DNA of 64,000 bases from Deltaproteobacteria bacterium. GTDB taxonomy: Bacteria; Myxococcota_A; UBA9160; UBA4427. Of the stretch, positions 18,352-39,044 are shown in pieces (position 1 is the stretch's first letter; every line of letters begins with the position of its first letter). Location of the stretch: NCBI GenBank assembly GCA_002719955.1, contig PBFW01000071.1, forward strand, positions 186,001-250,000, read 5' to 3'. A model generated the notes under the pieces. It was given only the letters and a program-made list of their open reading frames with translations. It searched no databases and was not told the DNA's origin. The position numbers and the translations under genes are program-made.

Positions 18352-18843
18352 GGGCGTCTCCTGCCACCGGAGCGGCTTCAGGCTAGCACTCGTCCGGATT
18401 CGGCTTTGCGCAGGGTGGGGCAGGCCTGCGCCGCTCTTTCCCATCGGCGGACGGATCTCGAACTCAAGGGTTGGCTCCCGCCCGATGAGGAGTGCGAACC
18501 AGATCGGGTGAATATAGGGGCATCCCTTTCGCGGCCCTTCTCGATTAGGAAATGTCCGGTCACGGACCGGTCAGACCGCCTTCGCACCAGGAGTTCTTGT
18601 CGCAAAAACGCATGATATAAATGAAGAGCAGTTTGTAAACCATTGAAAAGGCTATGAAAATTCAGTGTACTATTCTCTCGCCGGATGATCCGAGAGGGTA
18701 TATTTCTAAGTCTCGGACATACCCTTATTGGCTCCAGTGGGCACATCTCTTTTGAGCGCCGGCAGATGCGGCGTCCGCCTGGATGACCTCAAAAAACGGG
18801 TATTTCGCCGAGCGACAGGGCAGTCGAGGAAGTGGGACGGCAG
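18352..18843. promoter_or_regulatory. Divergent intergenic region between rfbB and the sugar transferase
   Basis: About 490 bases carrying the promoters for both directions. The part from 18600 to 18720 is clearly more A+T rich than the rest of the window. It contains an inverted repeat CTCTCG (18675-18680) / CGAGAG (18691-18696) enclosing GGATGATCC. I see no convincing sigma-70 or sigma-54 consensus. A regulator site controlling polysaccharide genes is plausible but inferred. Confidence 0.45.
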
Positions 18844-20253
18844 ATGCTGCGCAACAATGGAAAAGTCATATCGTCGTTGCTGATGTTCCTGGATGTTGTG
18901 CTCAGCGCAGCGATCTGGAGCTTCCTGATCCAATCGCCGCGGATCAGCGGAGTGGCCCACCCCTTCGCCGAAGCGGGCGGGGCGATGCTCCTGGTGGCCC
19001 TCACGGCCTGTCTCGTCTGGCCCTTCACTTTTCAGCAACTCGATGTCTATTCCTCGATTCGAACGCTGGGTTTCTGGGATATCACCCGTCGGCTGATCGT
19101 TTCGGGCTGCATCGTGGCCACGATCCTGAGTGCGATGGCCTTCGCGACGGATGTCCCTCTCAGCCGTGAATTTCCATTCATCTGTGCGGCGCTCCAGGGA
19201 CTCGCTCTCTCGGCGGCCCGGCTGGCCGTCTATGCCGCGCTGCGGTCGGCTCGTCGGGTCGGTCGGAATACGCGCAACGTTCTGATCGTGGGTTCCGGCG
19301 CGCGCGCCGCGCTACTCAAACGCACCATCGATGCGAACCCGGGCTGGGGACTCTTGGTTCTCGGTTTCGTCGACGATATAGACAGCGCCGTCGCCCCGAG
19401 CCTCTATGACGCCAAGATGTTCAGTCTGAACCAGATGCCAGACCTCCTGAGCGATATGGTTGTAGATCGCGTACTGGTGGCCGTGCCGCGCTCGATGCTC
19501 GGCTCGATCGCGCCGGTTCTGAGTTCGTGCAGCAGCACGGGGGTTCCGTTGACGCTCCTGACCGATCTCTTCGGAGATTACCTGCCGATGCCGCAGATCG
19601 GGCGGTTCGGCTCACGCGCCTCCCTCGAGTTCGCGGCGGTCCACCACAATTCCTTCCTTCTGGGCGTGAAGCGCGCCATCGACGTCGTAGGCTCTGTCGT
19701 CGCGATCGGTTTCTGTGCGCCGATCGTCGGATTGGCGGCCGCTGCGATCTGGTTCGAGGATCGAGGTCCGGTCTTCTTCAGCCAGACGCGCTGCGGTCTC
19801 TATGGTCGCCGCTTCCCGATGCTCAAGTTGCGCACCATGTGCGTGGACGCGGAGGCCCGCAAGAGCGAACTGATCGACCTGAACGAGATGGATGGGCCGG
19901 TCTTCAAGGTCAAATGCGATCCGCGCATCACGAGGGTAGGCGCCCTCCTTCGCCGCTACAGCCTGGACGAGCTACCCCAGTTGTGGAATGTCCTGATCGG
20001 GGAAATGAGCCTGGTCGGACCCCGCCCTCCGGTTCCGGAAGAGGTCGTCCACTACGAGATCTCCGAGCGCCGACGGCTGTCGATGCGGCCGGGGATCACC
20101 TGTATCTGGCAGGTCGGTGGCCGCAACGAAATCGGATTCCAGGAATGGGTGAAACTCGATCTCGAGTACATCGATTCGTGGTCTCTGGGCCTCGATGCCA
20201 GGATCCTGGCACGCACGGTTCCGGCCGTTGTTCTGGCCCGCGGCGCCTCCTGA
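18844..20253 (+). CDS. Polyprenyl-phosphate sugar-1-phosphate transferase (WcaJ/EpsB-like)
   Basis: Starts exopolysaccharide repeat-unit synthesis by moving a sugar-1-phosphate onto undecaprenyl phosphate at the inner membrane. About 469 residues: several N-terminal membrane segments (10-30, 40-60, 80-105, 110-130), a CoA-binding-like Rossmann region ([19 protein letters not shown]), a further membrane hairpin near 275-305, and the conserved catalytic domain with [32 protein letters not shown] and [19 protein letters not shown] 18844 fits the family N-terminus; GTG 18832 is an alternative. The Asp-Glu pair in SLDELPQ is intact. Probably the priming enzyme for this cluster. Confidence 0.92.
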
Positions 20254-20598: not shown

Positions 20599-22002
20599 TC
20601 AGGTGATCTCGGAAATCGACCCCAGGCAGGGAATCGGGATCGAATCTTCGAGGTGTTGCTCGTCGATGAGCACGGGCGCGAGCAGTTCTCGCACGACCCC
20701 GATCAGAAGCGCGAGCCCAATCGAAACCACGGCGCCGGCGCAAGCGACCAGCCAACGCGGAATGACCGGGGAAGTCGGCGGCATCGCCTCATCGAGGCGA
20801 ACCAGCCGTGCCCCCTGCTGGGAATGTTCCAGGCTCAGGGCCAGCTCGGCATTCTTCAGCTTGCGCAGATATTCGTTGTAATTCTCTTCCAGGATCGCCT
20901 CTTCCCTCACCAGTGCTGCGTATTCCTCCGCGATGAGCGGGGCCGCGTTGAGGCGTCCTTCGAGGTCACTCACCGTCCTGTCGATCTGATCGAGACGCAG
21001 CTGCTCGATCTCGACTCCCTTGGCGATCGCCTCACGCTCTTCGAGTGCCTCGATGTCGGCGGTCGATCCTGTCGTCCCTTCCTTTTCTTCCCACGCCGTG
21101 AGCTGCCTCTTGAGTGAGATGATCATCGGGTGATCGTCCGTGTAGATCGCGGTTGCGGTCTGGTGGCGGGAACGCAGATCCTCGAGCGTTTCGCTCTCGG
21201 TGAAGGCCTGGGGCCGAGCGTCGATCCTTTCGAGCTGTGCCTGGAATTCGCTGATCAACAGGATTGCATTTCCGCGCTGGACCTCCAGGCGTTCTAGCTT
21301 CGACGTCACACCGTTCTGCTCCTCCGGCAGGGCGCCCCGGTTCTGCGCGCGGAACTCGGCGAGTTTCCGCTGATGAACCCGTAACGCCTCGTCGGCTCGG
21401 CTGTACTCACGTTCCATGAACTCGGTTGTGACGCGGGCCTGACGGCTTCGATACTCGACGTTGGCACTGATCAGCTCAGCGACCGTTCGGTTGACGACCG
21501 CCGCCAGGACCTCCGGGTCTTCTCCGGACATCGCGACCTCGAACGAAATCGAGTGCGGCGCCGCTTTCGGTCGGCCGACGCCAGCGACGCCAGCGACGGG
21601 CGTGACGGTCAACTCGCTCAATAGACGCCCGGCCAGATCCTCGAGAGTGAGCGTTTCCCGCTCTTCCGGATAGAGGCCCGTATCGGAGATGATCTTTGCG
21701 AGATTGGCGCGCAGGAAGACGATCCCTCGGATCGCCTCGAACTCTTCGAGGATATTGGCGATGATCGTCGTCGGAACGAATTCGTCCGGGATGCTTTTGG
21801 CCGTCAGGAGAATCGTCGCCCGTGCCTGGAATTTCAGCGGGAAGTGGAGCGTCGCTGCGGAGGTGACCGCCAGAAACAGGGCCAGACTGAACAGGATCAG
21901 GCGGGACTGGCGCCGGAGGACCCTGGCCGGGTCGCGTAGGGCCGCCGGGAGCCCAGGGGCCTCCTCGCCATCATCTTCGTAGAAATCCGTTTCAGTCGTC
22001 AT
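20599..22002 (-). CDS. Polysaccharide chain-length determinant / co-polymerase (Wzz/GumC type)
   Basis: A 467-residue inner-membrane protein setting exopolysaccharide chain length. It has a transmembrane segment at about 33-53, a periplasmic Wzz domain (FQARATILLTAKSIPDEFVP), a long coiled coil (about 190-400) and a second transmembrane segment at about 420-445, preceded by the proline-rich PPTSPVIPRW typical of the family. The size and coiled coil fit the PCP-2/exosortase-type GumC group. Its start overlaps the end of the BY-kinase-like gene by 11 bases, so the two are coupled. Confidence 0.88.
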   Translation of the reverse strand: MTTETDFYEDDGEEAPGLPAALRDPARVLRRQSRLILFSLALFLAVTSAATLHFPLKFQARATILLTAKSIPDEFVPTTIIANILEEFEAIRGIVFLRANLAKIISDTGLYPEERETLTLEDLAGRLLSELTVTPVAGVAGVGRPKAAPHSISFEVAMSGEDPEVLAAVVNRTVAELISANVEYRSRQARVTTEFMEREYSRADEALRVHQRKLAEFRAQNRGALPEEQNGVTSKLERLEVQRGNAILLISEFQAQLERIDARPQAFTESETLEDLRSRHQTATAIYTDDHPMIISLKRQLTAWEEKEGTTGSTADIEALEEREAIAKGVEIEQLRLDQIDRTVSDLEGRLNAAPLIAEEYAALVREEAILEENYNEYLRKLKNAELALSLEHSQQGARLVRLDEAMPPTSPVIPRWLVACAGAVVSIGLALLIGVVRELLAPVLIDEQHLEDSIPIPCLGSISEIT

Positions 22003-22936
22003 CGTTGGGGTCCGCAGGTGGATCGATCGGGTCGTGGGGAGGCGATCCGTAGTGGTCGTATCCGGTCAACCGCTGCGCCTTCGGGTTCGAGTTGAGAAAG
22101 CTGCCCAGGATCTTTTTTCTCGGCAGGAGTTCGACGGTTCGGCGGACCGCCCTCACCGTCGTCGAGCCTGCTCGGGCGACGAAGAGCGCGGCTGCTGCGT
22201 GGCGAAGGATGAGCTGGGCATCGGTGACGGCGAGCAGGGGAGGGCTGTCGAGCAGGACGAGATCGAAGCGGCTCTCGAGGTCGCGAATCATCTTGGGCAG
22301 ATTGGGATGGGCGAGCAGCCGTTCAGCGTCGTGGACCCCTCGATCCAGCGCGAGCAGAGAGAGCCCGGTCACATCCGTTTCGATGATCGCTTCCGAGACG
22401 GAATGGTCCCCCCGCAGCACGCCATCGACGGGCGTTTCGATCTCGACGCCGAGGGCCGAAGCAATATCCGGACGACGAAGATCGAGGTCGACCAGAACCA
22501 CGTTCAGAGTCTGATCCAGCCCTGCGAGCTGAATGGCCAGATTGCAGGCGGTCGTCGTTTTGCCATCCCCTTGCTGAGCACTGGTGACAACGATCGATCG
22601 GGCCCCTCTGGCATCCGCGAGTTCTCGGACGCGGAATGCGAGTCGACGAGCCGTCTGCGCGGCATTTCCCTGAGGATTCGAGATCGAGATGCGTGCGGGA
22701 GGCGCCGGGTCGTCACGCTCGTGCCTCAGGGACTGGATCGAGCGCCCTATCCGGGTCTCTTTGGTGACGCCGGTGGGGAGGGGCGAATGGGGAGGGTGAT
22801 CTGCTGATCCGACCGCATCTGCGCGGTCGTCGCGGGGGCCGGGTGTGGCCCGCGGAAGATTTTCCGCGGATCTCTCTTTTTGGCCAATCGGGTTGGCTCC
22901 GTCAGCCCTTCGAAGTGCCTCAGCGATCTCACCCAT
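21992..22936 (-). CDS. CpsD/CapB-like tyrosine autokinase or MinD-type ATPase
   Basis: Cytoplasmic P-loop partner of the chain-length protein. In the 314-residue form: Walker A in VVTSAQQGDGKTTTACN (about 117-131), Walker A' VVLVDLDLRRPD (about 146-157), Walker B LVLLDSPPLLAVTDA. The start at ATG 22936 (MGEIAEALRRADGA) fits the family although the frame continues to 22999. The C-terminal tyrosine cluster that is autophosphorylated in BY-kinases is reduced to YDHYG followed by an Asp/Pro-rich tail, so kinase regulation may be weak or different. Transcribed ahead of, and overlapping, the Wzz-like gene. Confidence 0.85.
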   Translation of the reverse strand: MGEIAEALRRADGANPIGQKERSAENLPRATPGPRDDRADAVGSADHPPHSPLPTGVTKETRIGRSIQSLRHERDDPAPPARISISNPQGNAAQTARRLAFRVRELADARGARSIVVTSAQQGDGKTTTACNLAIQLAGLDQTLNVVLVDLDLRRPDIASALGVEIETPVDGVLRGDHSVSEAIIETDVTGLSLLALDRGVHDAERLLAHPNLPKMIRDLESRFDLVLLDSPPLLAVTDAQLILRHAAAALFVARAGSTTVRAVRRTVELLPRKKILGSFLNSNPKAQRLTGYDHYGSPPHDPIDPPADPNDDD

Positions 22937-23324
22937 TGATTCGATCTCGTCTCCGGATTGAAATTCTCGCGCGAATCTGCACCCAGATCGCGAGCCCACA
23001 TCGCGAATAGAACCCTCTCGTCGGCCCAGGGTTCGAGAACAGGATTGCGGGGCTCTGGGAGCCGGGAGGCCCCGGTGTCAGAGTCTCCACGTCTCTGTGA
23101 GTGCCCGAGCTGCTCAGATAGGGTGTCACAAGTCTCCCGGTGATGCAGCGGATGAGCAGCGACCGGGGCCGCACCGAGCAAAACTCTTTCGACCGGCGAA
23201 CGCTCTTCCCCCCATTAGGGTCTCATCGGCGGATCCCTCGAAACGGAAGAGGATTAGCGAGAAAAAAATCGCATTTTCGAACGAAACAGAGCATCTGGGA
23301 AGCCAGGTCTTTTGGCCGGAGCGA
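22937..23324. other. Upstream region of the BY-kinase/Wzz pair
   Basis: About 390 bases between the BY-kinase start and the hairpin after the dehydrogenase. The A-rich stretch near 23255-23290 is the most likely promoter region for the minus-strand pair. No coding frame with family features is seen. Confidence 0.35.
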
Positions 23325-23352: not shown

Positions 23353-24498
23353 TCAGAGGCCGAGGAGCGGGGCGATGATCATGCGCTGAATCTCGGAGGT
23401 GCCGGAGTAGATGCGGCTTGCGGTTGCATCGCGGAGCTCTCGCTCGATCTCGCACTCCTTCATGTAGCCGTAGCCGCCGTGGATCTGGATCGCGTCCTGG
23501 GCGGAAAGCACCCACGACTCGCTGATGTGAAGCTTGGCAAGGGCGGCCTCCATGAAGACGCTCTTTCGTCGTGATTTCAGCCAAGCCTGCTTGTAGAGCA
23601 GCGCCCGGGCCGTCTCGGTCCGCAATTTCATGTCGACGATTCGGCTTGCCAGGAGCTGGAATTTCCCGATAGGCTCGCCGAATTGCTTCCGGTCCTTTGC
23701 GTATTGGATGCATCGCTCGAGGAGGTGTTGCATCGCCCCGACCGCGGGAGCAAGGAGACAGCCGCGTTCCCAGGTCATCGCGTGGGTGAAAAGGTTCGAT
23801 CCCGCCCCCTCACGGCCCAGACGATTCTCGACGGGGATTTCGCAATCCTCAAGGAAGAACTCGCCCATGGGCGAGGTCTTGATGCCCATCTTCTCGACGT
23901 TCTTGGTGAGATTGAAGCCGGGGGTACCGGGTTCGATGAGAAACGCCGTGACCCCGTTGGGGCCCTTCTGCTTGTCGATGGTCGCGAACACGATCAAGAC
24001 ATCCGCGATGGGGCCGTTGGTCACGAAGATCTTCGTGCCATTCAGGACGTATCGATCCCCTCGCAGATCAGCGGTCGTCTGCATGCCGTACGCATCGGAC
24101 CCCGCTTCGGGCTCCGACATCGCGTTGCCGCCGATCAATTCGCCATGACACAGCCCGGGGAGCCACCTCTCCTGCTGCTCGCTGCTTCCGAAGGCCACCA
24201 GGGGCATGGCCGCGGTCCACATATGGGCGTTGATGGAAAACCAGAGGCCGTTGTCGCGACAGCCGTAGCCGAGGCCTTCCAGCACGCCGACCGCGGTCAG
24301 GGCATCGAGTCCGAGTCCGCCATGTTCCTCGGGAACCGTCAATCCCTGGATGCCCAGGCGGGCGAGGCCACGCCAGCCCTCGCGATTGAATTCGCCCTTC
24401 GTGTCGCGTTCGAGCAGCCCGTCGTTGAGTTCGTTCTGTGCGAACTCGACCACCGAGTTGCGAAACTGCTCCTGATCTTCGTTCCAGGAGAAATCCAT
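23353..24498 (-). CDS. Acyl-CoA dehydrogenase-like flavoprotein, probable prolyl-PCP desaturase
   Basis: FAD enzyme of about 381 residues with the full acyl-CoA dehydrogenase fold: GGNAMSEPEAGSDAYGMQTT, NGTKIFVTNG, DRKQFGEPIGKFQ and QIHGGYGYMKECEIERELRD. The usual base position before GTSEIQR is Ser364 instead of Glu; Glu244 in MTWERGCLLAP occupies the alternative base site used by isovaleryl-CoA and long-chain dehydrogenases. The frame opens at 24627 but the family N-terminus begins at ATG 24498. It lies 49 bp after a prolyl-type adenylation enzyme and a carrier protein, the trio PltE/F/L or RedW/M/O that converts L-prolyl-S-PCP to pyrrolyl-2-carboxyl-S-PCP. That role is inferred from context; ordinary fatty acyl oxidation is the alternative. 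Confidence 0.82.
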   Translation of the reverse strand: MDFSWNEDQEQFRNSVVEFAQNELNDGLLERDTKGEFNREGWRGLARLGIQGLTVPEEHGGLGLDALTAVGVLEGLGYGCRDNGLWFSINAHMWTAAMPLVAFGSSEQQERWLPGLCHGELIGGNAMSEPEAGSDAYGMQTTADLRGDRYVLNGTKIFVTNGPIADVLIVFATIDKQKGPNGVTAFLIEPGTPGFNLTKNVEKMGIKTSPMGEFFLEDCEIPVENRLGREGAGSNLFTHAMTWERGCLLAPAVGAMQHLLERCIQYAKDRKQFGEPIGKFQLLASRIVDMKLRTETARALLYKQAWLKSRRKSVFMEAALAKLHISESWVLSAQDAIQIHGGYGYMKECEIERELRDATASRIYSGTSEIQRMIIAPLLGL

Positions 24499-24547
24499 AC
24501 CAATCCGCCATTCGTGTCGTTGAGAGTGTGAGGGCCCGCTCGCGCGA

Positions 24548-26104
24548 TCAGTCCAGCCGCGAGAGCGCCTGATAGTCAATCTTGTCCGTGGAGGTCTTTG
24601 GAAGCGCGGCGTGGAAGCGGAATCCATCCGGAACCATGTAGAGCGGCAGGGTCTCGGAACAGAAGCGCTTGATTTTGATCATCGAGAGCTTCTGCCCGTC
24701 GAGCGTCGCGAGATGCGCGCGAATCGTGACCTCACCGTTGTCATCGACGACCGCGATCACCGCCGCCTCCTGTATGTCCTCATGGCGGTAGAGGCAGGTC
24801 TCGATTTCCCCGAGTTCGACGCGGTAGCCGCGTTTCTTGACCATGCGATCGCGACGCCCGACGAAGCGATAGGTATCTGGTGACTCCTCGACGACTAGAT
24901 CGCCCGTGCGGTACCAGCGCTTTCCATCCTCCTTTTCGAGAAAGGCAGATCGTGTTTGTTCGTCGAGATTCCAGTAGCCTCGTAGAACCGATGCGCCGGC
25001 GATGCAGAGCTCACCTTCCTCCCCGGCATCGATCTCCTGTCCGGCGGGGTCGACGACGATGCCCTCGAGATGGGAACAGACCGCTCCGATCGGGAAGGGG
25101 TCGGATCGATCCTCCGGGATCGTCCGCGGGATTTCGTGCCAGGTGCAGACGTTCGTTTCGGTCGGACCGTAGAGATTGAAATATCGTGGAAGGGGAAGCT
25201 GTTCCTTGAGCGTTCGCAAATGGCTGATCGGGAAGACTTCTCCGGCAAAGAGGACGATGCGAAGATTCGAGTAGTCATGCTCATCGAGCTTTCCATATTG
25301 GCAGAGGAGGCTCAGAATCGAGGGGGCCGAGTACCAGATCGAGATTCGTCGATCCGCGATCAGCTTGGCGAGACCGACGGGTTCCTTCCCAATGTCGTTC
25401 GGAATGAGAACGAGCGTCGCGCCGCTCGCCAAGGATGTATAGATGTCGAGAATCGAGAGATCGAAATGGAAGGGGGCGTGGGAGGAAAACCGGTCCTCGG
25501 GTGTCGGTTCGAATACTTCGAGGCACCACGCGACGAAACTCTCCGCGTTTCCGATCGAGATCATCACGCCCTTGGGTCGGCCCGTCGAACCCGATGTGTA
25601 GAGGATATAGGCGAGGTCATCCGACTTGGGTTCGACCGTGCTCGAGCAGGTCGCGGCGTCCTTTCGCTGGAGTCGATCGAGCAGGTCGGCCAACCCTCCG
25701 TGGGCAGGGTCGACGAGCAGCAGAGGCGCCGAAAAGGCTGTCTTTTCGAACTCGAGGATCAGATTCGGATGAAATTCTGTCGCGACGATGACGGCGGTGA
25801 CGGTGCAGTCAGAAAGGATATAACTGTTTCGCGAGGCGGGCGCTGTGGGATCCACGGGTACATAGGCGGCGCCCGCTTTGAGAATTCCGAAGATGGCCGC
25901 GATCGTGTCGATGGATTTGTGCAGATAGACGCCGACTCGATCACCGGGAGCGATGCCCATATGAAGCAGTCGATTCCGCACGTCGTTGGAGAGGGCGTCG
26001 AGTTCGGCATAACCGATGGAGCTTCCGTCCGGGGCTTCGATCGCGATTCGATCGGGGTAGCGCCTCGCTGACTCAGTGAGGGTCTGATGCAGGCTCATCC
26101 GCAC
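24548..26104 (-). CDS. Stand-alone adenylation enzyme, predicted L-prolyl-PCP ligase
   Basis: A 518-residue AMP-forming enzyme that activates an amino acid and loads it on a carrier protein. Core motifs: A3 YTSGSTGRPKGV (169-180), A5 NLYGPTETN (310-318), A7 YRTGDL, A8 RDRMVKKRGYRVELGEIE and the A10 lysine Lys508 (TSTDKIDYQ). The binding-pocket positions read D215, L216, L219, Y258, L285, A287, L311, V319, C320, i.e. DLLYLALVC with Lys508. I recall this as the code of PltF/RedM/AnaC-type L-proline ligases. DltA-like D-alanine ligases share the fold but have a different code. No condensation or carrier domain is fused. The start is MRMSLHQ at 26104 or the second ATG at 26098. Confidence 0.85.
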   Translation of the reverse strand: MRMSLHQTLTESARRYPDRIAIEAPDGSSIGYAELDALSNDVRNRLLHMGIAPGDRVGVYLHKSIDTIAAIFGILKAGAAYVPVDPTAPASRNSYILSDCTVTAVIVATEFHPNLILEFEKTAFSAPLLLVDPAHGGLADLLDRLQRKDAATCSSTVEPKSDDLAYILYTSGSTGRPKGVMISIGNAESFVAWCLEVFEPTPEDRFSSHAPFHFDLSILDIYTSLASGATLVLIPNDIGKEPVGLAKLIADRRISIWYSAPSILSLLCQYGKLDEHDYSNLRIVLFAGEVFPISHLRTLKEQLPLPRYFNLYGPTETNVCTWHEIPRTIPEDRSDPFPIGAVCSHLEGIVVDPAGQEIDAGEEGELCIAGASVLRGYWNLDEQTRSAFLEKEDGKRWYRTGDLVVEESPDTYRFVGRRDRMVKKRGYRVELGEIETCLYRHEDIQEAAVIAVVDDNGEVTIRAHLATLDGQKLSMIKIKRFCSETLPLYMVPDGFRFHAALPKTSTDKIDYQALSRLD

Positions 26105-26150
26105 GATCTCCCCGTTGGATACGATTTGTGATCTGCCATTCGCGGGTTCG

Positions 26151-26405
26151 CTAGAGCTTGGAGTTGATCAGATCCTTGATCAGGTCCAATGTGTCGAGGT
26201 TCTCGGCGTCGACCTCGTGGGGCTCGACTGCGATGTCATATGTCTCCTCGAGAAAGGTGACGAGTTTGAGCGTCGCGATCGAGTCCAGGATTCCACTGCT
26301 CACCAGCGGCGTCTCAGGAGTGAGTTCGTTGGGATCTTCTCCCGGTAGAAACTCGTCGAGAATGAATTTCTTGATCTCGTCTCGGATTGCGGACTGTTCG
26401 GCCAT
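26151..26405 (-). CDS. Acyl/peptidyl carrier protein
   Basis: A discrete 84-residue four-helix carrier protein. The phosphopantetheine site is the Ser in SSGILDSIATLKLV (about residue 42). Sequence and length fit the free PCPs of pyrrole pathways (PltL, RedO, AnaD type) and DltC-like proteins. It lies 46 bp before the adenylation gene, its expected loading enzyme, and 181 bp after the MBOAT-SGNH gene. No phosphopantetheinyl transferase is in the window. Confidence 0.9.
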   Translation of the reverse strand: MAEQSAIRDEIKKFILDEFLPGEDPNELTPETPLVSSGILDSIATLKLVTFLEETYDIAVEPHEVDAENLDTLDLIKDLINSKL

Positions 26406-26586
26406 GCAGCGCCTGCCTTTCTGTCTCTCTCAGTGATGAACTCTGACTGCCGGATTTCGACTCTGGCGTCGGTGCCGGACAGCGTCCGACTCTGCATTTT
26501 CGGTATCCGGACGATGTGGCCTTAGGGTAAAAGCTCACTCGGACCCCTGCCATGCTGCAAGAGGTTGGGGCTCGCCCGCGCGCGGT

Positions 26587-29223
26587 CTATTCGAGTGTGT
26601 TTGCGGCTTCGCTCACCGACGGGCTCGATTCAGCGTCCGGGTGCGGCAGCCAGGGGGTCAGCACGCGGTGGACGGCCTCGGCGAGGAGAATGTGACCCTG
26701 TGGATTGGGGTGGTTATCCCAGTTTTCAATCCAGAGCGAATGCTTGTCCTGAGCGCTGTCATAGGCGGTACTGGTGTCGATCACCGGCAGGCGAGCCTCC
26801 ACGGCGAGCTCGGTCTGGCGGTCGAGCAGTTCGCGCTCGTCCGAGTAATCTCCCGCGCGCGGTAGGAACGTCTGCAATACGGTGATGCCGGACTCCGTTC
26901 CCAGGGCGCCCATTCTTTCGTAGACCCAGCGAAGCATGTCCTCGCGGATCGGGCGCATCTTTTCCTCGGCGATGACGCTCGCCACACCGGGTTCGATTCC
27001 AGCCTCTTCGACTCTTCGGGCGAGGTAGTCGTAGGGCATGGGGCGACTTTTTGAAATCGCGTTGCCGAGTTCGATCGCGACCCAGTTGACGTCGTCGATT
27101 CCGACACTCATGACCACGTCGGGGTCGAAGGCGAGGACTTTGTCCTCGAAGGTGGCGAGCCGACAGGTCGGTCCATATCCGCTCACCGCGAAATTCATCA
27201 CCTCGTAGCGTGTTCCATCGGAAGATTCGCGGTTGAGGCGGTCCTCGAGGAGGTTCTCATAGGTCTCGTCATCCTTGACGCCGACGCCCACGGTATGCGA
27301 CGCGCCCAGGATCACGATCCGAACCGTTCCCGCCGGCTTTTCCCGTTCGTATTCACGGTCTCGCAGTCCCAGTGAGTTCGTACTGAGTTCCTCGCCCTTG
27401 TAGACGACCGTGAGAGATGGATGCAGGTCATAGGGGGGGAAGCTTCCTTCCTCCTGCAGCCGGATGGTGGGATTCGTGTTCCAGTCCGGCGGTCGCTCCT
27501 TGTAGAGTTCGGCCAGTTCCGGGTTGAATTTTGCGACGTCGATCAGGTTTTCGTAGTAGCCGCGTTCGAGCATCTTGGCGTCCGCGACATTGAGTGCACG
27601 GCTCGTCAACTTGGTGCTCATGGCCGCTAGGTCTGAAGGGAATCGACTGATGATCGGGCGGTGGGTGAGGGCGAGCAGGGCGAGCGAAGTGGCGACTCCG
27701 ATCGCGGCCGGACGCCAGAAACGCATCGGTTCGAGGGGGGTTCCCAGGCGCAGCGAGGCGAGGGGTTTGTTGCGCGGAGCATGGGCCTCGATGACGGCCC
27801 CAAGACCCAGCACCGAGAGGCAGCCGAAGATGGTGACGATCTCGAGCCCGGAAGAATGCCCGAAGGTCGAGATCAGCTTCACCCAGTCGGCGATGCTATC
27901 TGCTGACCAGAGTGCCCAGGCCGTGACGAAGACGGAGAACATCGTCACCGTTCGCAGGGCGAGGAGTATATCCTCCCCGAGTGTCCGCTTGACCTGGGAA
28001 AGACTCTTACGTTTTCTTCCAAAGCGCTGCTCGATGTACATGTTCCCGAGAATCATGAGACCGAGAAAACTCCAGAACGCGATGTCCTGCATCTTGCCGG
28101 GGAAGAATCCGCTGATCCAGAAGGTCTGGTATTCGTGGAGGGCCCAGGTCGCGAAGAAGGTCCATGTGGCGGCGACGAAGAGCGCACCGGTGTCCCCGAT
28201 GCGCCGCTTCATCCAGAAGAGCATCGGGTTGTAGAAGACCTTCTGCATGAAGTCCTTCCAGTAGACGTTGATCCGGCGCCAGAGGTCCGTGAAGCTCGAT
28301 GCCAGGAGGTATTTGTTGAACGTCTCAGGAAGGTTGAAGCCGAAGAGGCAGAGGAGGCCGATGACGAGGTTGAAGCTGCCCGAAACCTGCAGATAGCGCA
28401 GGAATGTCGTCGCCATGAAGAGGGCTGCCGTTCCGCCGCTCACGACCTCCGTCACGTCGATCATGAAATTCTGGTAGATGAGGCGGTAGAGCAGCAGATG
28501 CACGACTCCGCGTAGCATCCAGCGTGTACCCTTCTGATAGATCTCGAACGAGTCGGCAGAGAGATAGGTGCGGCAGAACGTCTTGTAGTCCACGACGGGG
28601 AAGAGGGGGAATAGAACGTTCGGGAGCATGAAGAAATAGGCGAATGCACGTGCGGGCGAGACGGGAGCGGCACGATGCTTCAAATCGTAGAGGTAGATGA
28701 TCATGCGGAACATGAACATCGAGCCCAGGATGGGCCATACGGGGGCGAGCGCAGGGATTGCATCCGGCATCGTGCGCATGTACGCGAGCGCCGCACCAGC
28801 GGCGATGATGAGGGAGATACGGACGAAATAGGGCACTGGAATATGCGCGAGGCCGATCAGCCCGCTGCCGACAGCGACCAGCGAGAGGGCGGAGACCAGT
28901 CCGACGACGTAGCCGATCGTTCCGAGCGAAAGCACGACGAAGAAGGGCATCTTCCAGTCGCGAGGAAGGAAATGGTGGACGATGAAGCCGCTCCACGCGA
29001 TCACGAGCAGGTAGAGGAAGACCTTGCTCTGGAGCTGGAATTCTCGGAGAAGGAGAATGACCAGGCCGAATTGCAGCAGAATGATCGTCAGGCGCACTAG
29101 GTTCTCGAGCCGAAACCCGTCTTGCCAGTCGAGGGTGCTCCCCGCACCGTCAGAGGAATTCGCACCGGGGCCGACATTCGCCGCAGCGAGTCGGCTCTTC
29201 TTGGGGGGCGCAGTCTCCGACAC
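26587..29223 (-). CDS. MBOAT O-acyltransferase fused to an SGNH-hydrolase-like domain
   Basis: An 878-residue inner-membrane protein. The first 540 residues hold about ten membrane helices with the MBOAT pattern: SFTDLWRRINVYWKDFM and the active-site His363 in WALHEYQTFW. From about 600 onward is an exported SGNH-like domain: block I ILGASHTVGVGV, block III-like SVGIDDVNW, block V-like WDNHPNPQGHILLAEAV. MBOAT proteins move acyl groups across the membrane and SGNH/DltD/AlgX-type partners place them on glycans; here both are on one chain. Its position in one operon with a carrier protein, ligase and dehydrogenase suggests it draws on that acyl-PCP. The block I Ser is present, but the usual GDS is GAS. 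Confidence 0.85.
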   Translation of the reverse strand: MSETAPPKKSRLAAANVGPGANSSDGAGSTLDWQDGFRLENLVRLTIILLQFGLVILLLREFQLQSKVFLYLLVIAWSGFIVHHFLPRDWKMPFFVVLSLGTIGYVVGLVSALSLVAVGSGLIGLAHIPVPYFVRISLIIAAGAALAYMRTMPDAIPALAPVWPILGSMFMFRMIIYLYDLKHRAAPVSPARAFAYFFMLPNVLFPLFPVVDYKTFCRTYLSADSFEIYQKGTRWMLRGVVHLLLYRLIYQNFMIDVTEVVSGGTAALFMATTFLRYLQVSGSFNLVIGLLCLFGFNLPETFNKYLLASSFTDLWRRINVYWKDFMQKVFYNPMLFWMKRRIGDTGALFVAATWTFFATWALHEYQTFWISGFFPGKMQDIAFWSFLGLMILGNMYIEQRFGRKRKSLSQVKRTLGEDILLALRTVTMFSVFVTAWALWSADSIADWVKLISTFGHSSGLEIVTIFGCLSVLGLGAVIEAHAPRNKPLASLRLGTPLEPMRFWRPAAIGVATSLALLALTHRPIISRFPSDLAAMSTKLTSRALNVADAKMLERGYYENLIDVAKFNPELAELYKERPPDWNTNPTIRLQEEGSFPPYDLHPSLTVVYKGEELSTNSLGLRDREYEREKPAGTVRIVILGASHTVGVGVKDDETYENLLEDRLNRESSDGTRYEVMNFAVSGYGPTCRLATFEDKVLAFDPDVVMSVGIDDVNWVAIELGNAISKSRPMPYDYLARRVEEAGIEPGVASVIAEEKMRPIREDMLRWVYERMGALGTESGITVLQTFLPRAGDYSDERELLDRQTELAVEARLPVIDTSTAYDSAQDKHSLWIENWDNHPNPQGHILLAEAVHRVLTPWLPHPDAESSPSVSEAANTLE

Positions 29224-29306: not shown

Positions 29307-32300
29307 TCAGCCCGCGCGATCCTCGGTCGCATCCGCATCCGCATCCGCATCCGCTGCCGTGTCGCGCGCAGTCGACGGTCGTGTGATTCGATACAGCGAT
29401 CCGGCTTCGAAGTTCCCTCGGATTTCGGTGCGCTCGGAAGTCGACCAGTCGATTTCGATGCTCGTGACGTGGTCCGCTTCGCCGAGACCAAAATGAGCGA
29501 TTGGCGTATCGAAGGAAATGAATCCTCCACCGGACTGCATTTCCCGCATCTGGTGCTGGCCCTCACCGTACCGGACGACGATCTTGGTGCCGAGGCCGAA
29601 TCGGTTGCCGCTCAGATCGCGCAGTTCGATATCGATCGAGTTTCCCAGGGTCGAACGGTTTTCGTATACCCAGATCGGGCCGTGAATGGGAACGGCGACC
29701 ATGTCGACATCCCCGTCGTTGTCGTAGTCGAGATAGGTGTAGGCGCTCGTTGGGAAATAGTCCGTGATGCCCGATTCGACGGACACGTCGGTAAAGCTCT
29801 TTCCCTGATCGTTGTGGTAGAGATAATTCGACTCTCGGATCTTGGATTCGAAGAGTCCGTTGACCGCGAAGAGATCCTGCCAACCATCGTTGTCGAGATC
29901 CGCGAATTTCGCGTTCCAGGTCCACCCGGTCACGATGACATTCATCTCCGTGGCGCGGTCGTTGAAGCCGGGCTCGCTCTCTCGTGGCATCAGCAATACG
30001 TTGTGGTTGCGGATCTGCGGGATCTCCTGCGCGTACTCCTCTTCCGAGTATTCGGCCCTCTGCTCGAATTGCATCCGGCATTGGCGCGAGAGTTCCTTCC
30101 ATCGATCGGCCAGGAAGTCGCATTGTTTCACGTCTTGGGTCCAGCGGGCGACGCTCAGAACATGGTGGACGACACAATTGGCCTGCTGCTCCGGGTCCTC
30201 GATCTGTAGACAGCTCATCGTATCCCGCCTCGCCTTACCGAGGCGTACGATATTCCAGAGCCGCGTCTCCTCGACGCATTTCGCTTTGAGCTCTTCATCT
30301 GACAGAGCATCACAGACATCGACGGGGTCTACCTGGCGCACGTGGTCCGTGTTCGTGGATCGACCGGTCACCTGTGTGAAATAGAGGTCCGTGCGAAGGT
30401 CGTTGTCGAGATCAGCGCTGGCGATGCTCATCGTGGTCTCGGTCGTGTGGGGAACGAGATTCGAATTCGCGCGGATCGCCTCGAGCGCGCCCGTGCCGTC
30501 TCCCTCATAGAATATGTCGGGTTGGGAAAAGTCGTTGCCGACAATGAGGTCGATATGGCCGTCGGAGTTGAAGTCGGTGAAGAGCGTGCTCAGGGTTTCG
30601 CCGAACATCGCGGGGAGGGGCTGTACCTGGAACGTGCCATTCTCGTCCAGCTCGTTCACGAGGACGGCGTTCTGTGAATCGGGCAGTCGCTGCCAGCGCG
30701 ACCAGTTGCCGAGCGCGATTTCGAGGTCGCCGTCCTTGTCGAGGTCCGCGAAGGAGGCCGCTGCAGTCATGACGGAATCCGTATTCGGGAGTCTGCTGAG
30801 CTGGTCCTCTCCGAATCGACCCTCCTGATTGAACACGACCCAGGTGCCTTGCATATAGGTCGAGAAGAAGAGGTCGAGCCAACCGTCATCATTGAGGTCG
30901 ACCAGGGCCACGAGCGACACGAAAGCGCCCTGCAGGCTGGGCAGGTCGACCTCTTGCAATTCGAAATGATCACCGGCGACATTCGCATAGAGCGAGATCA
31001 CATGGTTGCTCGAGGTGAGGACCAGGTCGCTCCAGCCATCATTGTGGACATCGCCGGAGGCGACGGCCTGGTGGTATTCGTAGGGGCGATTGAAACGTGC
31101 GAGGGAAAAGTCCCAGGGTTCGTTGATGCCGAGGTCGGTGCCGTCGATCTTCTCGAACCCCAGGGCCCCCTCACCCTCGCGGTAATTGAACGCACTTTGT
31201 TCGACGACGATTTCGCCCTCGAAGGATGTGGCTTCGAACGAACGTGGGTGGGGGGCGATTGCGGCCGCGAGCGCGTCGGAATCGAGGCCTTCGCGGTGGG
31301 ATGCAGCGACGTTCTGTTCCGCGACATCGGCATCCTTGAACACTTCGAGAAAGAGCGCCGTGCGGCGGTCCGTATCCCAGCGATGAAAACCCTTTGCCAT
31401 CAGACCGGAGACGACCCCGAAGAGCGTCAAGACGACCAGCATCGTCACGGCGATCTGCTTCGAGACATCCTTCCAGATCACGGTGAAGGGGTAGATACTG
31501 TAGATGCCGAGGGTGAAGAGCAGCGCCATCGCGTAGTGGGGAGGCATGCCGGCCCCGAACAGGATCGCGACGATCATGACATCGAAGGCAATCGGGACGG
31601 GCAGGAAGATCCCGACGGACGCGATGATGGTGATCCCGAGGAGTGCGACACCGAACTCTCCGATCAGATTTTCCAGACCGCCGCTCACTTCGAATAGCGA
31701 GGCCATCGTGTCCCAGGGAATGACCGTGATGACAACTGCGCCGAGGAACCCCGCCAGGGCCATCAGCGGCAGGGTCGTTCGGAGGATCCACCAGAGGTTC
31801 TTGAAATAAGCCTGAACGCCCCATTTCAGAGCATCGATCCAGGACTCGTTCGGATCGATCGGCTGCATCAGGTCGATCGGGCAGGCATCCTGGGAGATCG
31901 TCAGATCCTGGAGCTGATCATCCATCGCGTGTGAGGCATAGAATTTCGAGATGAGTGGAATTCCGACCAGAATGAAGATGACCGTGAGCCCGATCTTGAT
32001 GACCACGAAATAGGGCGGAAAGAGCGTGAACAACATCGTCACGACAACCATGTTGAGCGTTGGCGAGCTGATCATGGTGGCGAGCGTCGTTTCGATGCGT
32101 GCGCCCGCGGTGTGAATCCCCTGCGCGATTGGCGTGACGCAGTTGACACAGACCCCGAGTGGAGCGCCGATCATGATGCCCAGACTGCTGTTCATGATCG
32201 AACTCTTGTAAGCGCGTTTCTGCACGACCGTAAACAGGCTCATCAATGCGGCCGCGAACAGGATCCCGAAGGTCATGCCCCGCTTGTTCGTCTTCGCCCA

Positions 32301-32507
32301 GTTGATCGTCGTCTTGCCGATCTTCAGCCAGACCGGATCGGAGCGATCCACGGCGACGACGATGTCGAACCCGAGGGGATCTTCGAGGCGAATCTCACCA
32401 CCCATCGTGGCTTTTTCATTCAAGGACGGATAACGCGATCCACTCCAGAACTGGAACGCCATGGCGGCGATGACGAGGACGAGGAGTACGATTCGCTTGT
32501 TCTTCAT
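29307..32507 (-). CDS. Permease-FG-GAP-ASPIC/UnbV fusion protein
   Basis: 1066 residues, an unusual fusion. The first 420 residues are membrane-spanning and resemble the DUF318/ArsP-type permeases, with a paired-cysteine motif GVCVNCVTPIAQG (Cys120, Cys123) and ISSPTLNMVVVTMLFTLFPP. A large exported region follows: FG-GAP/VCBS propeller repeats with Ca-binding-like DLDNDG / DFNSDGHID loops, interrupted by a Cys-containing insertion (about 715-800). An ASPIC/UnbV domain comes near the end (NRFGLGTKIVVRYG, HFGLGEADHVTSIEIDWST). The tail ends in a (Asp-Ala)n run. The function is unknown; the permease half suggests transport of a metal or small ligand and the propeller suggests surface binding. 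Start ATG 32507. Confidence 0.75.
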   Translation of the reverse strand: MKNKRIVLLVLVIAAMAFQFWSGSRYPSLNEKATMGGEIRLEDPLGFDIVVAVDRSDPVWLKIGKTTINWAKTNKRGMTFGILFAAALMSLFTVVQKRAYKSSIMNSSLGIMIGAPLGVCVNCVTPIAQGIHTAGARIETTLATMISSPTLNMVVVTMLFTLFPPYFVVIKIGLTVIFILVGIPLISKFYASHAMDDQLQDLTISQDACPIDLMQPIDPNESWIDALKWGVQAYFKNLWWILRTTLPLMALAGFLGAVVITVIPWDTMASLFEVSGGLENLIGEFGVALLGITIIASVGIFLPVPIAFDVMIVAILFGAGMPPHYAMALLFTLGIYSIYPFTVIWKDVSKQIAVTMLVVLTLFGVVSGLMAKGFHRWDTDRRTALFLEVFKDADVAEQNVAASHREGLDSDALAAAIAPHPRSFEATSFEGEIVVEQSAFNYREGEGALGFEKIDGTDLGINEPWDFSLARFNRPYEYHQAVASGDVHNDGWSDLVLTSSNHVISLYANVAGDHFELQEVDLPSLQGAFVSLVALVDLNDDGWLDLFFSTYMQGTWVVFNQEGRFGEDQLSRLPNTDSVMTAAASFADLDKDGDLEIALGNWSRWQRLPDSQNAVLVNELDENGTFQVQPLPAMFGETLSTLFTDFNSDGHIDLIVGNDFSQPDIFYEGDGTGALEAIRANSNLVPHTTETTMSIASADLDNDLRTDLYFTQVTGRSTNTDHVRQVDPVDVCDALSDEELKAKCVEETRLWNIVRLGKARRDTMSCLQIEDPEQQANCVVHHVLSVARWTQDVKQCDFLADRWKELSRQCRMQFEQRAEYSEEEYAQEIPQIRNHNVLLMPRESEPGFNDRATEMNVIVTGWTWNAKFADLDNDGWQDLFAVNGLFESKIRESNYLYHNDQGKSFTDVSVESGITDYFPTSAYTYLDYDNDGDVDMVAVPIHGPIWVYENRSTLGNSIDIELRDLSGNRFGLGTKIVVRYGEGQHQMREMQSGGGFISFDTPIAHFGLGEADHVTSIEIDWSTSERTEIRGNFEAGSLYRITRPSTARDTAADADADADATEDRAG
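29329..29352. repeat. Hexanucleotide tandem repeat inside the fusion-gene tail
   Basis: Four perfect copies of GCATCC, followed by a degenerate fifth. On the minus strand it encodes the alternating Asp-Ala residues just before the stop at 29307. Because the unit is six bases, copy-number change would not shift the frame. Confidence 0.8.
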
Positions 32508-33023: not shown

Positions 33024-34121
33024 TCACCTCGCATCGACGGCGGCCTCGCAGCCGAGCGCGAAGGCATCGAGGATGGCATCAGCGACTTTGGCGCTGGCCT
33101 GTCCTGTGAGGTGTCCGTCGAATTGGAAAAACATTTCTTGTGTGGGATACCTCGCGATGACTGGCGTCAGGTCGAGATGCCTTGCACCGATTCGATCGAA
33201 GATCTCCTCTGCCTTCTCGATGGGCAGGTTCGGTTGGCGCTGTGGACCGCTCGCCGGCATCGGGTCTGGGGCCGGGGCTTCACCCGCCAGGACCGAAACG
33301 CCTTGCCGTGTGGGCAGAATCAGGAAGATCGGTTCTGTCCCCAAATCTCGACTCATTTGGAGGATTCGAGACATCTCCGTCTCGTAGAGGGATCGCGCCT
33401 CGACGAGGAACGCCTCTTCCCAAGCTTTGGGGCGAGCGAGCTGCTCGACAACCGCGCGATAGGATGCCGGTTTTGGGCGGGAGAAGCGGTGATGCAGGGA
33501 GGCTCCGAGTCGGTACAGGTGCAGATTCCTCATCAGTATGCTCTTGAGGTCGTTTCGATTTCCCGCGATTCCGTCCTTGACGGTGGTTGTCTTGGCCCAT
33601 TGGGTGTCGTGGAAATCATTTCCGACATAGCTGGCAACGATCAGGTGGTCGAATTTGATCCCCTGGTTGATCAGATACTCGAGGGTTTGGCGATATTGAA
33701 TCGGCCCGTAGCCCGATACGGACGCATTGAGGACATCGACGGTCGCGAGTCGAAGGTCGATATTGCCGACGAAGGACTCCGGATAGTCGAGCCCGTGGCC
33801 GAAAGCGTATGAATCTCCCAACCAGAGCGCCGTGCAACTGGGATTCTTCTGCAGATCGGGATTGAATCGAAAACCGTTTTCGTCGGTCGTGATCGTCCAG
33901 GCGGTCTCACCCGTGTCGACGTGTAGGCGCTTGTTCGGGAGCATGCTGTAGAAGGGAAGCGCAGGGTGTTGGCGGTAGATCGCCAACCACGACTTCGGCT
34001 GCGGCATCAGCAAGCGCAGAAAAATTTCTGCGAAGACAAGGGACGCGATCAGGGAGAAGAGCAGGAGAATACCCCGAAACAGAACCAGTCTGGACGCCGC
34101 AGTCTGCTTGATCTCAGCCAT
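33024..34121 (-). CDS. Membrane-anchored SGNH-family esterase/acyltransferase-like protein
   Basis: A 365-residue protein with one N-terminal membrane anchor (about 12-35) and an exported SGNH fold. Block I is ALWLGDSYAFGHGLDYPESF with the catalytic Ser in GDS, block III is SYVGNDFHDT, block V is FDGHLTGQASAKVADAI with the Asp-x-His pair. Such proteins add or remove acyl groups on extracellular glycans (AlgJ/AlgX or DltD-like) or act as lipases. It sits between the acyl operon and a glycosyltransferase on the same strand. Glycan modification is the likely role; the substrate is unknown. Confidence 0.75.
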   Translation of the reverse strand: MAEIKQTAASRLVLFRGILLLFSLIASLVFAEIFLRLLMPQPKSWLAIYRQHPALPFYSMLPNKRLHVDTGETAWTITTDENGFRFNPDLQKNPSCTALWLGDSYAFGHGLDYPESFVGNIDLRLATVDVLNASVSGYGPIQYRQTLEYLINQGIKFDHLIVASYVGNDFHDTQWAKTTTVKDGIAGNRNDLKSILMRNLHLYRLGASLHHRFSRPKPASYRAVVEQLARPKAWEEAFLVEARSLYETEMSRILQMSRDLGTEPIFLILPTRQGVSVLAGEAPAPDPMPASGPQRQPNLPIEKAEEIFDRIGARHLDLTPVIARYPTQEMFFQFDGHLTGQASAKVADAILDAFALGCEAAVDAR

Positions 34122-34383: not shown

Positions 34384-35472
34384 CTACGGTTCGTTCGGCT
34401 GATTCTGTGAACCACGGTCGGGTCTCGAACCTCCGAAGGACCGACCGCGGCCTTCCTTGGAACGGCGAGCCCCGGTCAGGAGGCCTGGGTTTGCGATGGT
34501 TCGGGGGGGGGTGGGTCGACCGCTGGGGAATGAATTCAGGCGGAAATTGAAACGAATGAAGTCGCGGAGGTGCCGGTTGGGATGTTTGCCCGGTCGGTTG
34601 ATGAGACGAAACCGCAGGCGGCAGATCGTGGCCCCCAGGACGTAGAGCAGGTTTGCTGCCCAGAGATAGGCCAGCCCGTAGTTCTTGAGGAAATAGTGGC
34701 GGCGCGAGGCATACCAGTATGTGGGAGTGGGCTTCGACGTGTTCTTCATACCCGTTGAGGCGGACCCTATATGTGTCACCGAACTCTCGATGACATAGTA
34801 GGTGAGCCAATTCGCTCTTCGTGCTCGCAAGCAGTAGTCGGTCTCTTCGAAGTAGAGAAAGAAAGTCTGGTCCATCAAACCGATCTCTTCGATCACCTCC
34901 CTTCGAATCAGCATGCTGGCGCCGGCCAGCCAATCGACCGGGCGTGTCTCAGTGGGCATGGGAAGGGCGACGATCCAGCGATTGAGCAGCTTCGAGATCA
35001 GACCGAGGTTGAGGGTCGACTCGAATTCGCTAAAGATGCTGGGAAAGCGAAACGCAGTTTCATGAGGGACGGGTTCTGGCCCATGAACATAGCTGCCAGC
35101 AATTCCCGCCTCCGGATTCGTGTCCAGAAAGTCGACGAGCGAAGTGATGCAATTCTCGTCCGGAAAAGCATCTGAATTCAACAGGTAGACATAATCGGGC
35201 TTGTCATCGCTGGCGAGGGCAGGGGCGGTCGCAAAATTATTTCCATACGCAAAACCACCATTATATTCGGAGGCGACGACATCCACTCGATCCGACCAGG
35301 CGGATTCGGCGACGGCCTCTCGCAGGGTTTCGAACGATCCGTCCTGGGAATCGTTGTCCACGATCTTGACTCGCGCGTCCGGGTAGGCGGCGAGTTCGAG
35401 CATGAGCGCGCGGAGCGCGTCCATCGTCATCGTGGGTGTCTTGTAGTTGAGAATGATGGCCAGGAGTTTCAT
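34384..35472 (-). CDS. Family 2 glycosyltransferase (rhamnosyltransferase-like)
   Basis: A 362-residue GT-A enzyme using a nucleotide sugar on the cytoplasmic face. The N-terminus is MKLLAIILNYKTPTMTMDAL, followed by KIVDNDSQDGS, NGGFAYGNNFA, YLLNSDAFPDE (DXD-like), WLAGASMLIRREVIEEIGLM and FFLYFEETDYCLRARRANW, all typical of the WbbL-like GT2 group. A hydrophobic segment near 265-290 may anchor it to the membrane. The C-terminal 45 residues are a low-complexity basic/proline tail. Probably adds one sugar of the repeat unit; with rfbBA present, a 6-deoxyhexose donor is plausible but unproven. Confidence 0.88.
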   Translation of the reverse strand: MKLLAIILNYKTPTMTMDALRALMLELAAYPDARVKIVDNDSQDGSFETLREAVAESAWSDRVDVVASEYNGGFAYGNNFATAPALASDDKPDYVYLLNSDAFPDENCITSLVDFLDTNPEAGIAGSYVHGPEPVPHETAFRFPSIFSEFESTLNLGLISKLLNRWIVALPMPTETRPVDWLAGASMLIRREVIEEIGLMDQTFFLYFEETDYCLRARRANWLTYYVIESSVTHIGSASTGMKNTSKPTPTYWYASRRHYFLKNYGLAYLWAANLLYVLGATICRLRFRLINRPGKHPNRHLRDFIRFNFRLNSFPSGRPTPPRTIANPGLLTGARRSKEGRGRSFGGSRPDRGSQNQPNEP

Positions 35473-38960: not shown

Positions 38961-39044
38961 GGCGCGTCAGTGTATCGAACCTCAAGCTGTGTGACCGTGG
39001 AGTCGATGGCGATCGAATTTCGGCTGCTAGGATGCGATCGGTCC

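Follow-up and report, generated by a model that had tools for sequence, protein, structure and literature searches.

What would a bacterium do with an enzyme cassette of the proline-to-pyrrole type beside a putative acyltransferase of the cell envelope? The question is raised by a four-gene block in a stretch of 64,000 nucleotides (hereafter the window) of contig PBFW01000071.1 (positions 186,001 to 250,000; assembly GCA_002719955.1), from the genome of a Deltaproteobacteria bacterium (Myxococcota_A; UBA9160; UBA4427) with a completeness of 94% and a contamination of 8.6%. In the order of transcription the block encodes a putative MBOAT-SGNH fusion protein, a free carrier protein (peptidyl carrier protein, PCP), a stand-alone adenylation (A) enzyme and a flavoprotein dehydrogenase (DH), and all four genes lie on the minus strand, as an earlier reading of the letters (the original prediction) had claimed. 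The explanation that best accounts for the whole, and which we hold to be reasonably probable, is a carrier-fed acylation of the envelope that would operate like the Dlt system (DltA, DltC, DltB, DltX, DltD; D-alanylation of teichoic acids) and would transfer a proline-derived heterocycle.

The A enzyme (24548..26104, minus strand, first ATG at 26098) is a predicted L-proline:PCP ligase. It contains the AMP-binding and AA-adenyl-dom domains (TIGR01733, 366 bits against a cut-off of 317), and its substrate pocket reads DLLYLALVC at residues 213, 214, 217, 256, 283, 285, 309, 317 and 318, each of the nine letters as given in the original prediction. This string, which we take to be the proline code of the pyrrole pathways (a literature text search found no mention of DLLYLALV), equals the pocket of PltF at 9 of 9 positions, whereas a DltA fragment reads DLMVFCTVA. 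PltF (6o6e) is also the best solved match to a single stretch of the enzyme (338 bits, against at most 222 for the DltAs), and it scores above DltA with a profile of 21 A sequences (471 against 308 bits) as well as with the pocket region alone (122 bits, against at most 72 for the DltAs); the pocket resembles that of PltF and not that of DltA. LgrA was rejected as the nearest relative, its 427 bits being the sum of two domains (201 and 220 bits); of 8xjz (351 bits) no single stretch passes 1e-60, whereas PltF does. Twenty-nine A enzymes (that of the window and 28 that adjoin a fusion gene or share a genome with one) fit the pattern D-L-[LF]-Y-x-A-[LW]-V-[CI], 16 of them with exactly DLLYLALVC, and they form a clade of modest support (71.8/63); the A enzyme of L104, from a genome that has a fusion gene, falls outside this clade with the pocket DLFYLALVC.

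A plain Dlt-like system for D-alanine or a fatty acyl group, with a DH that is unrelated to it, would account for the Dlt-like logic of the genes and for the match of the A enzyme to the DltA model TIGR01734 (302 bits). That score is, however, far under the equivalog cut-off of 559.85, the PCP reaches only 30.6 bits with the DltC model (cut-off 68), the pocket letters and the scores of PltF over DltA point away from D-alanine, and the phylogenetic tree places the DH among the prolyl-carrier enzymes (see below). D-alanylation was rejected on the pocket letters and the DltA and DltC scores, and the alternative as a whole is very improbable. For the same reasons (equivalog scores and pocket) the system is no member of Dlt, yet it would work like one. 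The PCP itself (26151..26405, minus strand, 84 residues) matches PF00550 above the cut-off (8e-6), and its phosphopantetheine serine, Ser42 in the motif GILDS, is conserved in 20 of 20 sequences. The OlsHI carrier family (111 bits, cut-off 130) was dropped as an identity for the PCP; PMC12493201 deals with ornithine lipids and makes no mention of an acyl carrier protein, and no bearing on this carrier was seen there.

The DH (23353..24498, minus strand, 381 residues, counted from the conserved ATG at 24498 of a reading frame that stays open to 24627) matches models of acyl-CoA dehydrogenases and is a predicted prolyl-S-PCP dehydrogenase. The best NCBIfam models are PigA (432 bits, below its cut-off of 500) and RedW (413 bits, below 650), and the best solved match is the prolyl-ACP (acyl carrier protein) dehydrogenase AnaB (4irn) with 468 bits, followed by 6cxt (313) and 5zw0 (303). 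All 18 sequences compared carry Glu244, in a WER motif, and 6af6, a variant of the prolyl-PCP dehydrogenase 5zw0, has Ala at the equivalent position; the usual glutamate of acyl-CoA dehydrogenases (at the place of YEGTSE) is absent. The WER motif alone is not fully specific, as ACAD_L092 carries it too. In a rooted tree of 48 tips, four ordinary acyl-CoA dehydrogenases split from the other 44 with support of 100/100, and all MBOAT-linked DHs in the tree group with prolyl-carrier enzymes (ACAD_L092, because of its long branch, the misaligned ph_L134 and the partial MB_L057 and MB_L060 were omitted from the second of two trees; the first had the same main groups and a wrong root, and the DH of L053, which lies in two frames, was left out of both). 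An ordinary acyl-CoA dehydrogenase, an outcome that the original prediction had named as damaging to it, is thus rejected by the solved-structure matches and the tree.

Is the largest protein of the block (26587..29223, minus strand, 878 residues) an MBOAT joined to an SGNH domain? Pfam places GDSL_2 at residues 639-844 (2.5e-11, above the cut-off), within the SGNH domain of the C-terminal part (about residues 636-850); the nucleophile Ser642 (27298..27300) is conserved in 28 of 28 sequences, and Asp836 and His838 (WDNHPN, 26710..26718) in 27 of 27 each, counted over rows with letters there. For the membrane part (about residues 40-530), none of the 31 family members, the window's included, matched PF03062 (MBOAT) at E<=10 in a Pfam test whose HMMER filters remove the majority of matches weaker than about 0.1. 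In hhalign, a profile built from these members aligned with 14 Pfam-validated MBOATs, taken from the genome of the window and related ones, with a probability of 97.5 and an E value of 4.9e-12 over 271 columns; in this alignment the WRR motif is in register, and His363 (28135..28137), invariant in 31 of 31 sequences, falls near the catalytic histidine of MBOATs. A local rerun scored 99.5; a control with reversed columns reached 18.9, 10 column shuffles at most 26.1, and 10 shuffles of 25-column blocks, in which the real motif blocks were kept, 54.5-64.1. The original prediction had called this half an MBOAT outright; the assignment has no match in Pfam to rest on, but it holds at the level of profile-profile comparison. 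Two planctomycete loci (L062 and L064) have separate genes for the MBOAT part (464 and 471 residues) and for two SGNH proteins, as a fusion of two domains would lead one to expect.

Between the membrane part and the SGNH domain lies an RGYYE motif (residues 554-558; 27550..27564) with two candidate acyl-relay tyrosines, Tyr556 and Tyr557, which are present in 28 of the 29 rows with letters there; YYE also occurs in all four separate SGNH proteins of L062 and L064. The acyl-tyrosine shuttle of PatA and DltX is the FXYXXF hexapeptide (PMC12148441). Hexapeptides of this type terminate 13 of the 14 ordinary local MBOATs and none of the 31 MBOAT-SGNH sequences (some of which end at contig ends), one of which, L056, has an internal match. 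From this pattern we infer that one of the RGYYE tyrosines may serve as the relay. Among relatives of the fusion gene, a KSB1 bacterium (L052) has three in tandem, two of them cut by contig ends, with one PCP, a Rhodothermales bacterium (L063) has two in tandem, and L036 is a second fusion-like gene, 56% identical to that of the window, which is open for only 544 residues, lacks the SGNH part and shares its genome with a full block (L107).

Do the four genes belong together? The block recurs in distant bacteria and is therefore more than a chance arrangement. A scan of an 84,980-species genome collection for the fusion gave 29 loci, whose named hosts include Microvirga, Hyphomonas, Accumulibacter, Pseudothauera, Gemmatimonadetes, Anaerolineae, Planctomycetota and Spartobacteria, and a search of the window's phylum added four. 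The survey of genomes that the original prediction had suggested showed that the linkage to the MBOAT gene is conserved, with fusion, PCP, A and DH genes in one stretch in 19 of these 33 loci, from several phyla; Microvirga brassicacearum, Microvirga soli, Microvirga sp. VF16, Pseudothauera rhizosphaerae and Hyphomonas johnsonii are among the carriers. Fifteen of the 19 are on a single strand; the fusion gene diverges from the other three genes at L037, L038 and L040, and in L061 the fusion and PCP genes are divergent from A and DH. Contig ends cut, or lie near, 8 of the 14 incomplete loci (L032, L042, L043, L052, L055, L056, L057, L059), and missing genes were found elsewhere in several genomes: the second block L107 for L036, A, DH and PCP for L032 (L108), A and DH for L042 (L104), and a DH for L062 and for L064. 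An A enzyme was likewise found in the genomes of L052 and L063, L056 has its A gene on the spot, and the genome of L060 was left out of the A search.

Within the window's phylum the genes are also inherited together: of 282 genomes (top 3 to 6 candidates scored in each), just one set of five (G000, G181, G065, G050, G045) has the full-length fusion (at least 479 bits; next 64), the A enzyme (at least 767; next 518) and the DH (at least 605; next 499). Distance matrices over 19 loci (L035, L053 and L057 left out) correlate at 0.885 for fusion and A, 0.811 for fusion and DH and 0.75 for fusion and PCP, and 0 of 5000 permutations were as high. In the class of Pseudothauera, with up to 4 candidates scored per genome, 1 of 369 genomes was positive, namely Pseudothauera itself, and in plasmids an MBOAT-SGNH gene (E<=1e-30) was found in one Microvirga record only. 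Could the cassette instead yield a diffusible pyrrole metabolite, with the MBOAT-SGNH gene a mere neighbour in another role such as O-acetylation? Plasmid cassettes with related DH, carrier and A genes in other settings would fit this, as would weaker A and DH pairs that are adjacent without a fusion gene in G177, G221, G272 and G258 of the phylum sample, which we took for putative natural-product cassettes. Co-inheritance of fusion and cassette argues against it, however, and so does the window block, in which Pfam and NCBIfam detected no thioesterase, ketosynthase or condensation gene for release or extension of the carrier-bound acyl group; moreover, acetyl-CoA-fed MBOAT/SGNH pairs, and the MBOAT/SGNH pathways besides Dlt in general, are reported without a carrier protein (PMC12148441). 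We regard a diffusible product as improbable.

In the envelope acylation that we favour, the A enzyme would activate L-proline and load the PCP, and the flavoprotein would oxidise prolyl-S-PCP, most likely to pyrrole-2-carboxyl-S-PCP and possibly just to the 1-pyrroline-5-carboxyl stage. The MBOAT-like domain would accept the acyl group from the PCP and transfer it across the membrane to form an acyl-tyrosine, perhaps in the RGYYE linker, from which the serine of the fused SGNH domain would take it over and pass it to an exported glycan, to be attached at a hydroxyl; in the window the probable recipient is the exopolysaccharide whose gene cluster surrounds the block. Halogenation of the carrier-bound pyrrole probably precedes transfer in some members of the Verrucomicrobiota and Gemmatimonadota, and perhaps of the Chloroflexota.

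How does this scheme compare with known systems? AlgI/AlgJ are a further MBOAT-SGNH pair for O-acetylation, and AlmEFG, which places glycine on lipid A, resembles the window system in that a ligase, a carrier and a membrane-associated transferase put an amino acid on the envelope, but it uses another transferase family and has no dehydrogenase. Other pyrrole cassettes are PltF/L/E, RedM/O/W and PigA. CloN3-5 fill the roles of a pyrrole cassette (PMC11085572). Such natural-product cassettes share with the window block the logic of A enzyme, PCP and flavoprotein, the pocket letters and, in some loci, a Bmp2-like halogenase; their acyl outlet is a PKS (polyketide synthase), an NRPS (nonribosomal peptide synthetase) or a thioesterase, whereas here it would be the MBOAT-SGNH protein. 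In Dlt, the acyl group passes from the carrier to the MBOAT, a tyrosine, the SGNH protein and the polymer, so that an amino-acid-derived acyl crosses the membrane from a carrier protein (PMC12148441). Dlt and the window system alike consist of an A enzyme, a free carrier, an MBOAT and an SGNH protein, and the latter differs by its proline-type pocket, its added prolyl dehydrogenase, the fusion of MBOAT and SGNH (split in the two planctomycete loci), RGYYE in place of an FXYXXF shuttle motif and its occurrence in several phyla, Gram-negative ones included. PatA/PatB, an O-acetylation system, likewise acylates the envelope with an MBOAT and an SGNH protein, but it is acetyl-CoA-fed, its SGNH partner is separate and its class has FXYXXF at the MBOAT C-terminus (PMC12148441). 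That source describes two bacterial schemes, one in which MBOAT and SGNH protein are separate and one of AT3-SGNH fusions, and a fusion of MBOAT and SGNH that is fed by a carrier fits neither. The enzymology of the original prediction is well supported, and its acyl-transfer logic follows Dlt/Pat chemistry, from which the fused SGNH domain and the different conserved tyrosine motif are apparent departures.

Halogenases beside related blocks bear on the state of the ring. The L041 locus (Spartobacteria) has, on one strand, the fusion, a Na+/H+ exchanger, two flavin halogenases, PCP, A and DH; L057 (Gemmatimonadetes) has DH, fusion, PCP, exchanger, two halogenases and a sulfatase. L059 opens like L057, and a separate contig of its genome (L156) encodes an exchanger together with sulfatases and two halogenases; in the genome of L042 (Anaerolineae), exchanger, halogenases and PCP share one contig (L155). 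The exchanger-type protein recurs by halogenases or PCP in L041, L057, L059, L155 and L156. All four halogenases of L041 and L057 pass PF04820 (7e-17 to 1.5e-21), and among solved proteins their profile matches 5bva best, with 318 bits against 182 for the next that is not a mutant and 176 for PltA; 5bva is presumably Bmp2. We take it as such because the three changes that set 5bul apart from it, Y-S, F-V and A-W, are those of the Bmp2 mutant described in PMC5577590. Bmp2 brominates carrier-bound pyrrole in the Bmp1-4 pathway (PMC5577590). A Bmp2-like halogenase of at least 596 bits is present in 4 of the 19 searched genomes that have a fusion or a related block. Flavin halogenases of this kind act on aromatic rings, and their position by block genes favours an aromatic pyrrole in some lineages. 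Since they are closest to Bmp2, which acts on carrier-bound pyrrole, the halogenase-bearing blocks probably pass through pyrrolyl-S-PCP; by analogy, the window block may do so too.

Which glycan might receive the acyl group? Around the block the window contains exopolysaccharide genes that are a possible source of the acceptor, namely a sugar transferase (18832-20253, plus strand), a chain-length-like protein (20599-22002, minus) and a tyrosine-autokinase-like protein (21992-22999, minus), both below the NCBIfam cut-off, and further glycan genes for a GT2 (34384-35472, minus), a flippase (38970-40502, plus), a sulfotransferase (40535-41467, minus) and a weak Wzy-like protein (41845-43341, plus; below the cut-off), together with nucleotide-sugar enzymes. 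A flippase and glycosyltransferases are also near the Microvirga locus L037, and two glycosyltransferase families (12 ORFs each) are the commonest among Pfam matches of 112 flanking open reading frames (ORFs) of 16 loci.

Other neighbours and plasmid records deserve mention. The gene next upstream of the fusion (29307-32507, minus; 1066 residues) encodes a protein whose ArsP_1-type permease half precedes FG-GAP repeats and an UnbV_ASPIC domain; this gene was rejected as part of the block, with a homologue in 0 of 33 loci at E<=1e-3. A second SGNH-like protein (33024-34121, minus) is without a Pfam match, and its one NCBIfam match, of the LA_2486 type, is weak. On the Streptomyces clavuligerus plasmid pSCL4 (L137), a stretch that bears no gene annotation encodes a DH and an A enzyme with 53% and 43% identity to those of the window. 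Plasmids of Pseudohalocynthiibacter (L139) and Roseovarius (L140) have PCP, a prolyl-type DH, a methyltransferase and A by YjbH/YjbF exopolysaccharide genes and a HupE/UreJ protein; the A pocket of L139 is DIFFIGSMC, perhaps for another amino acid, and for this reason these Roseobacter cassettes were kept as a lead only, not as a second glycan case.

Several observations weigh against a pyrrolyl ester of a polysaccharide made by a conserved four-gene system. The first concern the acceptor. A search of low sensitivity, with nine seed proteins, detected glycan genes near no more than 9 of the 33 loci (L037, L038, L040, L041, L043, L050, L053, L060, L061) and saw no acceptor genes next door at many betaproteobacterial loci, and 0 of the 5 proteins scanned in the Pseudothauera flank belong to this category. 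The same chemistry might therefore act on a lipid, a glycolipid, peptidoglycan or a small molecule; this we consider unlikely, though worth keeping in mind, given the exopolysaccharide cluster around the window block and the genes beside L037, and because known MBOAT/SGNH pairs target envelope polymers (PMC12148441). Linkage and inheritance have their exceptions as well: six loci with intact flanks (L036, L058, L060, L062, L063, L064) lack at least one gene on the spot, a DH of the clade level was not found in the genomes of L052, L056, L058 and L063 (best 328-366 bits), nor was an A enzyme found in that of L058, and shared host ancestry contributes to the correlation of distances. In the DH tree, the clade of 44 includes three proteins of unknown role (L131, L133, L135) with Asp in place of Glu, and its support is only 22.7/47 without them; the MBOAT-linked DHs form three subclades intermingled with natural-product DHs, and for this reason the cassette may have been exchanged between lineages. 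No halogenase stands in the window block, the best match in its genome (195 bits) being on another contig.

A further point concerns the oxidation state. The DH subclade of the window is sister to AnaB (98.9/100), whose product is (S)-pyrroline-5-carboxyl-ACP (PMC3252866), and the DH of the window could therefore stop at a two-electron oxidation, so that the same machine would leave 1-pyrroline-5-carboxyl (dehydroprolyl) groups, not pyrrole, on the glycan; the lead of 4irn over 6cxt and 5zw0 agrees with this. The best NCBIfam model, though below its cut-off, is nevertheless the prodigiosin enzyme PigA, halogenases, as enzymes of aromatic rings, accompany related blocks, and the DH of L104 belongs to the same larger clade (97.2/100) and comes from a genome with a Bmp2-like halogenase, albeit on another contig. 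An imine ester also seems less stable. A dehydroprolyl product is, on balance, a minor possibility. Of the refuting outcomes that the original prediction had named, none that lends itself to computation was observed. What stands of its polysaccharide pyrrolyl or dehydroprolyl ester is the PltF-like pocket, the prolyl-carrier DH and the conserved linkage; the proline substrate, the pyrrole, the relay tyrosine, the polysaccharide acceptor and the ester bond we infer. That bacteria of several phyla decorate extracellular glycans with pyrrole-2-carboxyl esters, halogenated in some lineages, by a dedicated MBOAT-SGNH fusion fed by a carrier and with a new RGYYE relay is accordingly put forward as a plausible but tentative proposal.

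Among the matches listed in a search of open-licence literature, judged by title and the start of the abstract, none dealt with bacterial polysaccharides that carry pyrrole or prolyl esters or with an MBOAT that has a prolyl cassette, and the four-gene block seems undescribed. The prediction is testable in the named strains of Microvirga, Pseudothauera rhizosphaerae and Hyphomonas johnsonii that carry the block. If true, it would join pyrrole natural-product biosynthesis and the acylation of envelope polymers, two fields that have been held separate, and would extend the known modifications of bacterial glycans by a heteroaromatic substituent, which may be halogenated; natural-product chemistry would then serve as a surface coating.

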